Positions 14,563-18,158 of a DNA stretch of 54,779 nucleotides are shown here, piece by piece. This DNA is from Lachnospiraceae bacterium. GTDB lineage: Bacteria > Bacillota > Clostridia > Lachnospirales > Lachnospiraceae. How positions within the stretch are numbered: the first letter of the stretch is position 1; each line of letters starts with the position of its first letter. Position numbers and translations under genes: made by a program. Location of the stretch: NCBI GenBank assembly GCA_024682835.1, contig JAIKYU010000150.1, positions 1 through 54,779 of the forward strand, written 5' to 3'. Below the pieces are notes generated by a model. That model saw nothing but the letters and a program-made list of their open reading frames with translations. It did no database searches and was not told where the DNA came from.

Positions 14563-15933
14563 ATGTTTGAGAAGTGGTTTCATTTAAAAGAGCACGGAAC
14601 CGATGTGCGCACGGAGGTGGTCGCCGGCATGACGACCTTCCTGTCGATGGCTTACATCCTGGCAGTCAATCCGAATATCCTGAGTGCCGGGGGCATGAAC
14701 CGGAGCGGCGTGTTCGTGGCAACCGCGATCGCGTCGGCGATAGCGACTTTCGTCATGGCTTTTCTTGCCAACTATCCGATCGCGCTGTCTGCGGGTCTTG
14801 GCTTGAACGCCTATTTTGCCTACACGGTGTGCCTGGGCGAGCTGGGCGGGGATGCCAATGCATTCCGTGTCGCCCTGACCGCGGTTTTCGTCGAGGGCCT
14901 CATCTTCATCCTGCTTTCCCTGTTTAAGGTGCGGGAGGAGATCATCAACGGCATTCCCTCCAATCTGAAGAACGGCATCACCGTCGGAATCGGTCTGTTC
15001 ATCGGCTTCATCGGTCTGCGCGGTGCCAACATCGTCATCCCGAGCGGCTCTACGACGGTTGAGCTGGGCAATTTCAGGGATCCCGGCATGACGCTGGCTC
15101 TGATCGGTTTCCTGATCATCCTTGTGCTTGCCTATTATAAGGTCAAGGGCGCGGTGCTGATCGGCATCCTGGCGACCTGGGTGCTGGGAATGATCGCACA
15201 GGCGGCCGGCTGGTATGTTGTGGATATCGAGGCAGGGGTTTACAGCGTGTTCCCGGATTTCTCACAGGGACTGAATCTCGGCGGCATTTCGGAGACGGCT
15301 TTCAAGCTTGATTTCGCCTGGGTGGGAGCTCACTTCATCCAGTTCGTCGCCATTGTCTTTGCGTTCCTGTATGTGGATCTCTTTGACACGATCGGCACCG
15401 TCGTCGGTGTCGCTGACAAGGCGGGCCTTCTGGACAAGGATGGAAAGCTTCCCCGCGCCGGCAAGGTGCTGATGGCGGACGCAATCGGCACAACGGCGGG
15501 CGCTCTGCTTGGCACCTCCACGGTCACCTCGTTCGTCGAATCGAGCGCCGGTGTCGCAGAGGGCGGCAAGACAGGTCTCACCGCATTCACGACGGGCGTC
15601 ATGTTCCTTGTGGCGCTGGTGCTTTCACCGATCTTCCTGGCAATCCCCGGCTTTGCCACTGCGCCGGCTCTGATCTACGTCGGTATGCTGATGATCAGCT
15701 CTGCCAAAAACATTCATTTTGACGGAGAGGTCGCCGATGTGGCCGGTGCCTATATGGCGATCATCATGATGCCGCTGTCCTACTCCATCGCGACCGGTAT
15801 CATGTTCGCGGTGGTAACCTGGGTCATCATCAAGATCTTCGAGGGCAAGACCAAGGATGTGAGCCCGGTGATGTGGGTGGTCTTTGTGCTGTTCCTGTTG
15901 CGCATCATCACACTGGTGACCAATTTCCAGTAA
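14563..15933 (+). CDS. NCS2/AzgA-type purine permease
   Basis: A 456-residue membrane protein of the AzgA subfamily of nucleobase-cation symporters (PbuG/PbuO-like). It would import hypoxanthine, guanine or adenine. Family hallmarks are the N-terminal KEHGTDVRTEVVAGMTTFLSMAYILAVNP, the SAGLGLNAYFAY motif, FVDLFDTIGT-like (YVDLFDTIGTVVGVA) and the GTSTVTSFVESSAGVAEGG motif. About 12-14 hydrophobic segments are visible. AGGAGGGAG lies ideally before the ATG. The following lipoprotein gene begins only 7 bases after its stop. The exact purine cannot be read from sequence. Confidence 0.93.
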   Translation: MFEKWFHLKEHGTDVRTEVVAGMTTFLSMAYILAVNPNILSAGGMNRSGVFVATAIASAIATFVMAFLANYPIALSAGLGLNAYFAYTVCLGELGGDANAFRVALTAVFVEGLIFILLSLFKVREEIINGIPSNLKNGITVGIGLFIGFIGLRGANIVIPSGSTTVELGNFRDPGMTLALIGFLIILVLAYYKVKGAVLIGILATWVLGMIAQAAGWYVVDIEAGVYSVFPDFSQGLNLGGISETAFKLDFAWVGAHFIQFVAIVFAFLYVDLFDTIGTVVGVADKAGLLDKDGKLPRAGKVLMADAIGTTAGALLGTSTVTSFVESSAGVAEGGKTGLTAFTTGVMFLVALVLSPIFLAIPGFATAPALIYVGMLMISSAKNIHFDGEVADVAGAYMAIIMMPLSYSIATGIMFAVVTWVIIKIFEGKTKDVSPVMWVVFVLFLLRIITLVTNFQ

Positions 15934-15940
15934 ACCTTTT

Positions 15941-17668
15941 GTGAAGAGGACAGGCATTTTCAATCGAATCAACCAGTATCGGAACGCGGGGCGTTACTGC
16001 CTTGCGTTCCTTTTATTGTGCTTTTTTGTTCTTTTTGTGCCAGCCGGCTGCGCCTTTCCCTACGCCGGATTTGAGGATGCGTATCCTGAGACCTCATCCC
16101 CGGAAAAGAAGAACGATGCGCCGGAGCAGGCCGTGACGGAGGAGTCTGCAGACGACGACCGGGACCTGCGGACGCCGGAGGAGCGGCTGGAGGATGATCT
16201 GAAAGCCGGCAAAATTTCCTGGGATAACGCGCCGGAGATTCATAACCGCGAGGAACTGATCAGTTACATGCGCCGGGTGCGGGATCACGATCTCACGGAA
16301 GCACCCGTGATCTACTGTGACGGGTATATGGCGGATTACGAGGAGATCCTGCGCGCAGTCAATCTCGCTTATATCGATTTTGAAATCCGTTCGGAACAGA
16401 AAAATTCGAAGCATGTGCTGTACACGCTGACCTACTATCCCGGAGAGCGCGTTGCGAAGGCGTACCATCTCGGAACGACCAGCGGGCTGAATGAGGAGGA
16501 GCTTGCGCTGTATCGTGACGCAGTCATCCTTGTTGAGGATGCCATGAAGCTGCCGGATGTCCTGCATCGTGAACTGTTTCTGCACGATCAGGTGATCGGA
16601 AGGGCGACCTACCACAATCGCAGGGAGCGGGTCGGGGTTCCGCGGTTTTGCACGGCGGTGGGCGCCATGCTCGACGGACAGGCAAACTGTCAGGGGTACT
16701 CGGATGCGTTCCTGATGCTCGCATCGATGACCGGGATGCAGGTTGGCAGACAGTCCGGTTTCGCCGATAACCAGGAGCATATGTGGAATACCGTATGCCT
16801 GGACGGACGCTGGTATGCGCTGGACTGCACCTGGGATGATGCTTCCTATACCCTGAACGGGACAGAATATACCAGTTACGCTTATTTCAATGCGCCGCTC
16901 GCGGTTTTACGCGCTACGCACAGTTTTGAGGACTACACGGTGGAGCATCCGGTGGTCGAAGAGCTGTCAGATGCACCGGATTACTTCTATCTCACGACGG
17001 AAGCGAGCAATGATTATTTTGGCCGATTCTATCCGTCTATGGAAGAGCTTGCGGCCGCGGCAGCGCAGCGGATGGACCAGGGCGTGCGCTACTTCTATGC
17101 GATGGCTCCGGCCGATCAGGAGAATTACGCGAGATACAGGGATGTCGCGGACTCGATTGACAGACATCTTCGCGTGAAAAAGGATTATGTGACGATTCTC
17201 ACAAACCGCGGGGAGTACGGATTCGTCACGATTGACGCGACCGGTTCCGAAGCGGAGGCGGAGGAGACGCAGAGCGACCGCGTATCTGAGGAACAGTCCG
17301 GTTTTCCGGGGGCGGATGCTTCGGAAAGCCCCACGGTTTCTGAGGACGGAATCTATACCCACGCGGAGGATGTGGCGCTCTATCTGCATCTTTACGGCAG
17401 GCTTCCGCAGAATTTCATCACAAAAAGCAAGGCCCGGGAGCTAGGCTGGAGCGGCGGCGGTCTGGAGGATTATGCGCCGGGTAAATGCATCGGCGGCGAC
17501 CGGTTCGGCAATTATGAGGGGCTGCTCCCTGAGAACGGTAAGTACAGAGAGTGTGATATTGACACGCTCGGTGCGGATTCACGCGGTGCAAAGCGGCTGA
17601 TTTACTCGGACGACGGCGGCATCTGGTACACGGAGGATCATTATGCAAGCTTTACGCGCCTGTACTGA
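15941..17668 (+). CDS. lipoprotein with transglutaminase-like domain fused to a barnase-type ribonuclease
   Basis: A 575-residue predicted lipoprotein. A hydrophobic signal ends in the lipobox PAGC (C37), followed by an acidic linker. Residues about 200-310 form a transglutaminase-like core with the triad C250 (NCQGYSDA), H280 (EHMWN) and D295 (LDCTWDD). Residues 474-575 are clearly a barnase/N1 ribonuclease domain: LPQNFITKSKARELGW, APGKCIGGDRFGN and DHYASF match barnase. Its catalytic set is intact, with K495, E537, R548, R552 and H567 in barnase spacing. The cell-surface C-terminus would carry guanyl-specific RNase activity. The GTG start has no visible ribosome binding site and lies 7 bases after the permease stop, so the start is uncertain. 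A barstar gene overlaps the 3' end and supports the RNase call. Confidence 0.9.
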   Translation: MKRTGIFNRINQYRNAGRYCLAFLLLCFFVLFVPAGCAFPYAGFEDAYPETSSPEKKNDAPEQAVTEESADDDRDLRTPEERLEDDLKAGKISWDNAPEIHNREELISYMRRVRDHDLTEAPVIYCDGYMADYEEILRAVNLAYIDFEIRSEQKNSKHVLYTLTYYPGERVAKAYHLGTTSGLNEEELALYRDAVILVEDAMKLPDVLHRELFLHDQVIGRATYHNRRERVGVPRFCTAVGAMLDGQANCQGYSDAFLMLASMTGMQVGRQSGFADNQEHMWNTVCLDGRWYALDCTWDDASYTLNGTEYTSYAYFNAPLAVLRATHSFEDYTVEHPVVEELSDAPDYFYLTTEASNDYFGRFYPSMEELAAAAAQRMDQGVRYFYAMAPADQENYARYRDVADSIDRHLRVKKDYVTILTNRGEYGFVTIDATGSEAEAEETQSDRVSEEQSGFPGADASESPTVSEDGIYTHAEDVALYLHLYGRLPQNFITKSKARELGWSGGGLEDYAPGKCIGGDRFGNYEGLLPENGKYRECDIDTLGADSRGAKRLIYSDDGGIWYTEDHYASFTRLY

Positions 17669-17942
17669 AAAGGTGTTTTATATGGACCTGTCCGATGTGA
17701 CGGACCGTGACGGACTGCAGCGGCTGCTGCGGGAGACGCTGCCGCTGCCGGAATACTACGGAGGCAGTCTGGATGCGCTTTATGACGTGCTCACGGAGCA
17801 CGGAAGCGGCTGGAACATCATTCTGTACCGCTATGCCGGTCTGGAACGGCTGCAGCCGAAAATCTTTGCCGGTCTGAAACGAGTGTTTCAGGACGCCGTC
17901 CTGGAGGTTCCGGGGTTACGCGTGCGATTCTTCAAAGGATGA
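17643..17942 (+). CDS. barstar family ribonuclease inhibitor
   Basis: A 99-residue protein of the barstar family, the intracellular inhibitor that plugs the active site of barnase. The signature helix region LPLPEYYGGSLDALYDVLTE matches barstar LPEYYG-x-LDALWD, including the two aspartates that contact the RNase active site. ATG 17643 overlaps the last 26 bases of the transglutaminase-RNase gene in another frame. An alternative ATG at 17682 gives MDLSDVTDRDG and would shorten the protein by 13 residues. The overlap argues for coupled synthesis of enzyme and inhibitor, which would protect the cytoplasm before the RNase is exported. A terminator follows. Confidence 0.9.
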   Translation: MQALRACTEKVFYMDLSDVTDRDGLQRLLRETLPLPEYYGGSLDALYDVLTEHGSGWNIILYRYAGLERLQPKIFAGLKRVFQDAVLEVPGLRVRFFKG

Positions 17943-17964
17943 CCGTGCGGAGCGCATTGGAAAA

Positions 17965-17994
17965 GCCCCGATTCGGAAATGATCGAACCGGGGC
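17965..17994 (+). terminator. terminator-like hairpin after the barstar gene
   Basis: GCCCCG-A-TTCG, an 8-base loop, CGAA-C-CGGGGC, a stem with a single mismatch. It is followed by CCTGTTATT, a poor T-run. A second small hairpin with a GNRA loop, GAGC-GAAA-GCTC, lies at 18004-18015. Confidence 0.5.
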
Positions 17995-18158
17995 CCTGTT
18001 ATTGAGCGAAAGCTCTGTGCCGAGTACTCAATTGACAATTATGATCATACAATAAGAATATGTCCGAATTGTGAACATGACCTAAAAGAAATCTAAAACT
18101 GTATGAAAAACCCGGAAACCGGATCGGATTTTCCTGACTGGTGTTATTCGAAAAAGTG

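Follow-up and report, generated by a model that had tools for sequence, protein, structure and literature searches.

A contig of 54,779 nucleotides from a Lachnospiraceae bacterium (GenBank JAIKYU010000150.1), referred to here in its whole length as the window, contains a gene (15941..17668) for a 575 aa protein in which a transglutaminase (TG) part is joined to a C-terminal barnase-type ribonuclease (RNase), followed by an overlapping gene for a barstar. The parts are known and their combination is new: no account of a TG-RNase fusion was found in the open-licence literature, which agrees with a preliminary description of this DNA, where such a lipid-anchored combination was presumed to be undescribed. 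We favour, with a probability of about 0.5, the reading that the product is an exported, probably lipid-anchored, two-enzyme protein of the cell envelope, in which the RNase is carried on a TglA-like scaffold and serves the breakdown of RNA.

Domains and catalytic residues of the fused protein

All features described below lie on the forward (+) strand. In the Pfam search, the 575 aa protein matched the Ribonuclease family (PF00545) at residues 483-574 (E 2.8e-18, 66.7 bits vs. a cut-off of 24) and Transglut_core (PF01841) at residues 214-296 (E 5.7e-6, 27 bits vs. a cut-off of 23). Among solved structures, the best match of the C-terminus was binase (E 6.1e-23), with barnase at about 7e-22, so the barnase likeness claimed for it in the preliminary description holds. 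The RNase domain comprises residues 471-575 (17351..17665), and its catalytic residues K495, E537, R548, R552, and H567 are all in place in the window protein and are retained in all five fusions that we identified. The earlier claim that every catalytic position is conserved is correct for these five residues and fails for one more site, namely, that of barnase Arg59, which is occupied by Tyr525. Tyr is present there in 71 of the 86 RNase rows compared (loci whose last 60 residues duplicated those of another locus, and those with fewer than 70 residues, were removed, both for this count and for the tree described below). Thus, while the domain and its barstar resemble barnase/binase (PF00545) and barstar (PF01337) in sequence, catalytic residues, and the adjoining position of the inhibitor gene, barnase and binase are small secreted enzymes, and here the RNase is the C-terminus of a TG protein and has Tyr at the place of Arg59.

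The structural model of the TG part (residues 60-445, 16118..17275; mean pLDDT, the predicted local distance difference test score, of 88.7) shows the fold of TglA of Streptococcus pyogenes (PDB 9crn), which is the nearest solved fold, and the window protein has the Cys-His-Asp triad expected of a TglA-like protein. A model of the whole protein, built on six rows, had a mean pLDDT of 52.3 and was not used. The triad, complete as previously stated, is encoded within 16688..16825 (C250, 16688-16690; H280, 16778-16780; D295, 16823-16825) and is invariant in the six orthologues described below and in all 23 rows of an alignment (A5) of these orthologues with 17 of the 22 other TG relatives; the alignment deliberately excludes L006, L159, L162, L166, and L168. 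Unlike the window protein, TglA and the Lachnospiraceae TG proteins compared carry no RNase. The two parts are connected by a linker (residues about 441-470, 17261..17350), which is variable in the orthologue alignment.

The predicted signal peptide (residues 1-37, 15941..16051) ends with Cys37, which is invariant in the six orthologues and would be the site of lipid attachment. The lipobox indicated in the preliminary description is only partly confirmed: the PS00013-type pattern that we applied fits all five other orthologues, while the VPAGC sequence of the window protein fails it. It fits also 10 of the 22 other TG relatives, with machine-picked starts, and a further count in the same scan as that of the orthologues gave at least 12 of 24, with starts that were likewise machine-picked and in several cases clearly too short. 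With the model of the MAG6410 TG-related lipoproteins (NF045980), the window protein scored 47.8 bits, which is below the curated cut-off of 450.

The barstar gene (17643..17942; PF01337, E 1.2e-14) encodes 99 aa, starts with ATG, and overlaps the fusion frame by 26 bases, exactly as previously noted. Its putative ribosome-binding site, GGAGG (17632..17636), lies 6 nt 5' of the ATG, within the codons of the RNase. Both the GGAGG and the overlapping ATG are identical in L001, L002, and L004; in L072 the barstar start lies some 100 bases farther downstream, the gene does not overlap the fusion, and the GGAGG is not so used. Starts at ATG 17682 or GTG 17673 were dismissed, because neither L001 nor L004 has a start codon at these places and the overlapping ATG is the one that is kept. 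D44 and D48 fall at the sites of barstar Asp35 and Asp39. Among the fusion loci, the barstar is far less conserved than the RNase (42-59% vs. 75-82% identity to that of the window). A G+C-rich inverted repeat, found by eye 3' of the barstar gene (approximately 17964..17997), is present also in L003.

Orthologous loci and the range of the fusion

A scan of the genomes of 84,980 species revealed six loci (L001-L006). Three of them (L001, L002, and L004) encode full-length relatives and L003 encodes the TG part only; all four are from metagenome-assembled genomes of Lachnospiraceae, with L002 and L003 from the rumen. L005, from an Erysipelotrichaceae genome, encodes an RNase that has no TG part, and L006 is a remote TG match. 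Within the genus, the whole fusion occurs in 5 of 79 genomes, the window's included (G000, G454, G432, G451, and G457), and the TG part alone in one (G443); we took G454, G432, G451, and G443 to be the same as L001, L002, L004, and L003, respectively. The survey of homologues called for in the preliminary description has therefore recovered the same fusion, and since four other assemblies contain the same fused frame, an error of sequencing or assembly that had joined two genes can be dismissed. The RNase is not always an independent gene either: it occurs without TG in 53 of the 58 RNase-bearing genomes of the genus and is fused in the rest.

The orthologues (those of L001-L004 and L072) are 60-65% identical to the window protein, and the organization of their loci is similar. 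The permease gene, assigned by Pfam, is preceded by carB (named by eye, as was glgA), with an additional frame of 553 codons between the two in L002. The barstar gene is directly downstream in all five fusions, and trpS (assigned by Pfam) follows in the window and in L001, L002, L003, and L004; it does not occur within the short stretch covered for L072. Both domains are under purifying selection. In comparisons with the window, omega was 0.045-0.186 for the RNase and 0.111-0.167 for the TG part, where one pair could not be computed; synonymous divergence (dS) was between 1.07 and 3.2.

The TG-only orthologue (L003:5776-7143) is encoded at the same locus by a frame with a clean end in the linker, directly followed by the inverted repeat known from the 3' side of the barstar gene. 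A reported match to query residue 491 was taken as chance, and the possibility that L003 is a decayed copy was rejected, as its DNA ends cleanly in the linker. In a permease tree (14 rows, 8 outgroups), L002, L003, and L004 form a group with values of 94/91, slightly short of the mark for strong support; loss of the RNase-barstar pair in L003 is therefore likelier than separate gains in the other loci, albeit not proven. In the RNase tree (86 rows, 116 columns, a quick method, and long branches present), the five fused domains did not form one clade when the tree was free, and that grouping was not rejected (p-AU, of the approximately unbiased test, 0.355), so this tree is compatible with a single fusion event or with several.

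Within the genomes searched, the fusion is restricted to one small clade. Among the matches listed for 397 genomes of the family, with at most three candidates scored per genome, only that of the window spans TG and RNase, and among 391 genomes of the class, which partly overlap with those of the family, only the window's RNase lies in a frame of more than 386 aa (TG was not sought in this set). No TG match was found by tblastn (1e-3) in 15 places with long frames or divergent RNases, a set that covers part of the long frames. With regard to a mobile or phage origin, no record covering 80% of the query was found among 72,556 plasmid and 50,697 phage records. The separate halves are widespread: TG proteins without RNase are common in Lachnospiraceae, and in the genus a barstar gene adjoins 23 of the 24 RNases without TG that were inspected. 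These exported barnases of the same genus, many of which appear to be lipid-anchored, are at most 74% identical in the domain and, like the window RNase, have an adjoining barstar; they differ from it in having no TG domain and other gene neighbourhoods.

Several other RNases found in the searches deserve mention. A region of Acetoanaerobium noterae (H1, NZ_CP154629.1:1911079-1911621), where no gene is listed, is 39% identical to residues 401-575, and the match extends upstream of the RNase domain into the linker and the end of the TG part. Divergent barnase-type domains, 33-47% identical, are encoded by L137:5466-5672, L139:621-953, L132:5253-5468, L130:5629-5769, and L131:1064-1204 in other frames, some of them long (531 codons in L137, with an N-terminus that looks toxin-like by eye), and the stretches around these five domains gave no match to the window's barstar. 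In L129:5993-6328 and L141:1812-2147, repeats that by eye resemble bacterial Ig-like domains precede RNases of the common type, which may be another way of fitting this RNase to surface modules. In L133, L136, and L138, of the same genus, long Gly/Ser-rich stalks carry the RNases, and inspection by eye revealed no lipobox; the RNase of L134, whose start is not settled, is on such a stalk as well.

Permease gene, start codon, and hairpin

Directly upstream, in all six orthologous loci, the window's included, lies a gene for an NCS2/AzgA-like permease (14563..15933; PF00860 Xan_ur_permease, E 3.4e-40), the substrate of which is presumably a purine. Its stop codon ends 7 nt before the GTG of the fusion in the window. 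The start codon is GTG in all six orthologues; in L002, L004, and L072 it shares bases with the stop codon of the permease gene, and in the window, L001, and L003 it begins 10-13 bases downstream of the first base of that codon. The window GTG has no ribosome-binding site of its own, and in L003 AGAGGAG is located directly 5' of the GTG. The conservation of the GTG and its placement at the permease stop make it likely that translation of the fusion is coupled to that of the permease by re-initiation. The odd start pointed out in the preliminary description is thus real, and such coupling would explain it better than a weak start acting on its own.

Inside the signal-peptide codons, a hairpin of 12-13 pairs followed by TTTT (15981..16010) has the appearance of a terminator. 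It begins 40 nt after the GTG in five orthologues and 37 nt after it in one, with a predicted free energy (dG) of -19.4 to -29.5 across the six. Most synonymous recodings of its residues gave a less stable hairpin, as the stability of the native one was equalled by 34, 40, 0, 139, 3, and 31 of 2000 recodings in the six orthologues. Its sequence pattern occurs at just two sites in the genome, the other of which is less well paired, so the hairpin is not a common repeat. In 24 members of the genus that have no TG gene at this position, inspection by eye revealed mostly an ordinary terminator after the permease stop, at the same place. The hairpin may therefore be the terminator of the permease gene that was absorbed into the coding frame, and it is likely to dampen transcription.

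Possible function of the fused protein

In the mechanism that we favour, the N-terminal three quarters of the protein would be TglA-like, with a transglutaminase/cysteine-protease fold of the kind common in Lachnospiraceae, and the C-terminus would be the genus's own exported guanyl-type RNase, placed on a flexible linker rather than made as a separate protein. The barstar encoded by the overlapping gene would stay in the cytoplasm and block the RNase before export. Synthesis would be tied to that of the upstream purine-type permease via the position of the GTG at the stop codon of the permease gene, and the terminator-like hairpin among the signal-peptide codons would probably lower it. Most likely, the protein degrades RNA at the cell surface, with the products or bases entering salvage; the TG part would anchor it and would also have some activity on polypeptides of the envelope. 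We favour RNA breakdown because the RNase is of the ordinary exported type of the genus and its gene begins where that of a purine-type permease ends; among the roles listed in the preliminary description, RNA digestion fits best. A possible parallel is Balifase of Bacillus licheniformis, an exported barnase relative that is reported (PMC5021464) to be encoded in one operon with its inhibitor and to be induced by phosphate starvation; it is a small free enzyme without TG, while the window RNase is TG-fused.

Several observations weigh against this reading. None of the 10 proteins encoded beside five RNases without TG has a role in nucleotide salvage or purine transport (these neighbours include a thiamine pyrophosphate enzyme, a CitMHS transporter, a pectinesterase, GH88, a redoxin, and one NTP_transferase), so a link to the permease is found in this clade only and could be due to chance. 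A guanine preference of the RNase domain is not assured, since the Arg of the guanine loop is replaced by Tyr. The lipobox of the window copy is non-canonical, and the TG match of L004 reached 21 bits, below the cut-off of 23 that the other five exceed. The RNase seems dispensable, as L003 lacks both RNase and barstar and no PF00545 match was found in its genome, which is 81% complete. As regards the hairpin, a regional scan for terminators revealed no excess (3 vs. 3.1 expected), and covariation lends it no support, since there are no two-sided compensatory changes and its pair count (97.2% paired) is reached in 55 of 500 column shuffles.

The gene order and the surface anchor could also suggest a contact-dependent antibacterial toxin, in which the lipid-anchored protein would present the RNase to neighbouring cells and the barstar would confer immunity on the producer and its kin. 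A toxin gene followed by an immunity gene, a surface anchor, and a C-terminal nuclease are in accordance with the logic of polymorphic toxins; in the survey by Zhang et al. (2012, PMC3482391), those with an N-terminal TG share with the window locus the signal peptide, the TG, the C-terminal toxin-type nuclease, and an immunity-type gene directly behind. There is also a parallel with the lipoprotein SitA toxins with C-terminal nucleases, which occur in myxobacteria (PMC8546572). However, the TG domains of polymorphic toxins are described in PMC3482391 as devoid of some triad residues and followed by RHS repeats, whereas here the triad is intact and Pfam matched no toxin leader, such as RHS or LXG, in the window proteins. 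The same source reports different C-terminal toxins on one N-terminus; among the six loci, a small sample, the C-terminus is not swapped but is the same RNase in five and absent in one. PADLOC detected nothing, and no second barstar was found in the window's genome. The toxin role, also put forward in the preliminary description, thus lacks specific support, and we consider it unlikely. Somewhat less probable still is that the TG acts as a protease on its own linker or that of a partner and releases the RNase from the cell in this way. As the linker sequence varies among the orthologues, no common site of cleavage can be recognized in it; the TG relatives without RNase have no cargo of that sort to free, and the type of reaction cannot be read from the fold.

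If selection acted on the TG protein only, the RNase-barstar pair might be a nearly neutral passenger of a drifting fusion, and its clean absence from the same site in L003 would fit this. Yet the four fusions other than that of the window are closer to it in the RNase (75-83% identity) than in the TG part (62-70%), with the low omega values given above for the RNase, the catalytic residues of which are kept in all five, which makes such drift improbable. We regard as equally improbable a bifunctional weapon or tool of the surface, in which an active TG would crosslink or cut polypeptides in the envelope of its own cell or of a neighbouring one and thereby place or free an RNase aimed at that cell, with the barstar as kin immunity; this would be a lipid-anchored toxin of Gram-positive bacteria with a working TG as its delivery enzyme.

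In the RNA-breakdown reading that we prefer, as in the others, an RNase-inhibitor pair of a usually stand-alone kind has been joined to an enzyme scaffold that is predicted to act at the cell surface, and the question bears on the border between nutrient RNases and contact toxins. The TG-only relative at the same locus offers a natural experiment on the recombination of exported nucleases and surface enzymes. The start at the permease stop, together with the hairpin in the signal-peptide codons, provides a testable case of a gene that may have grown over the terminator of its neighbour.
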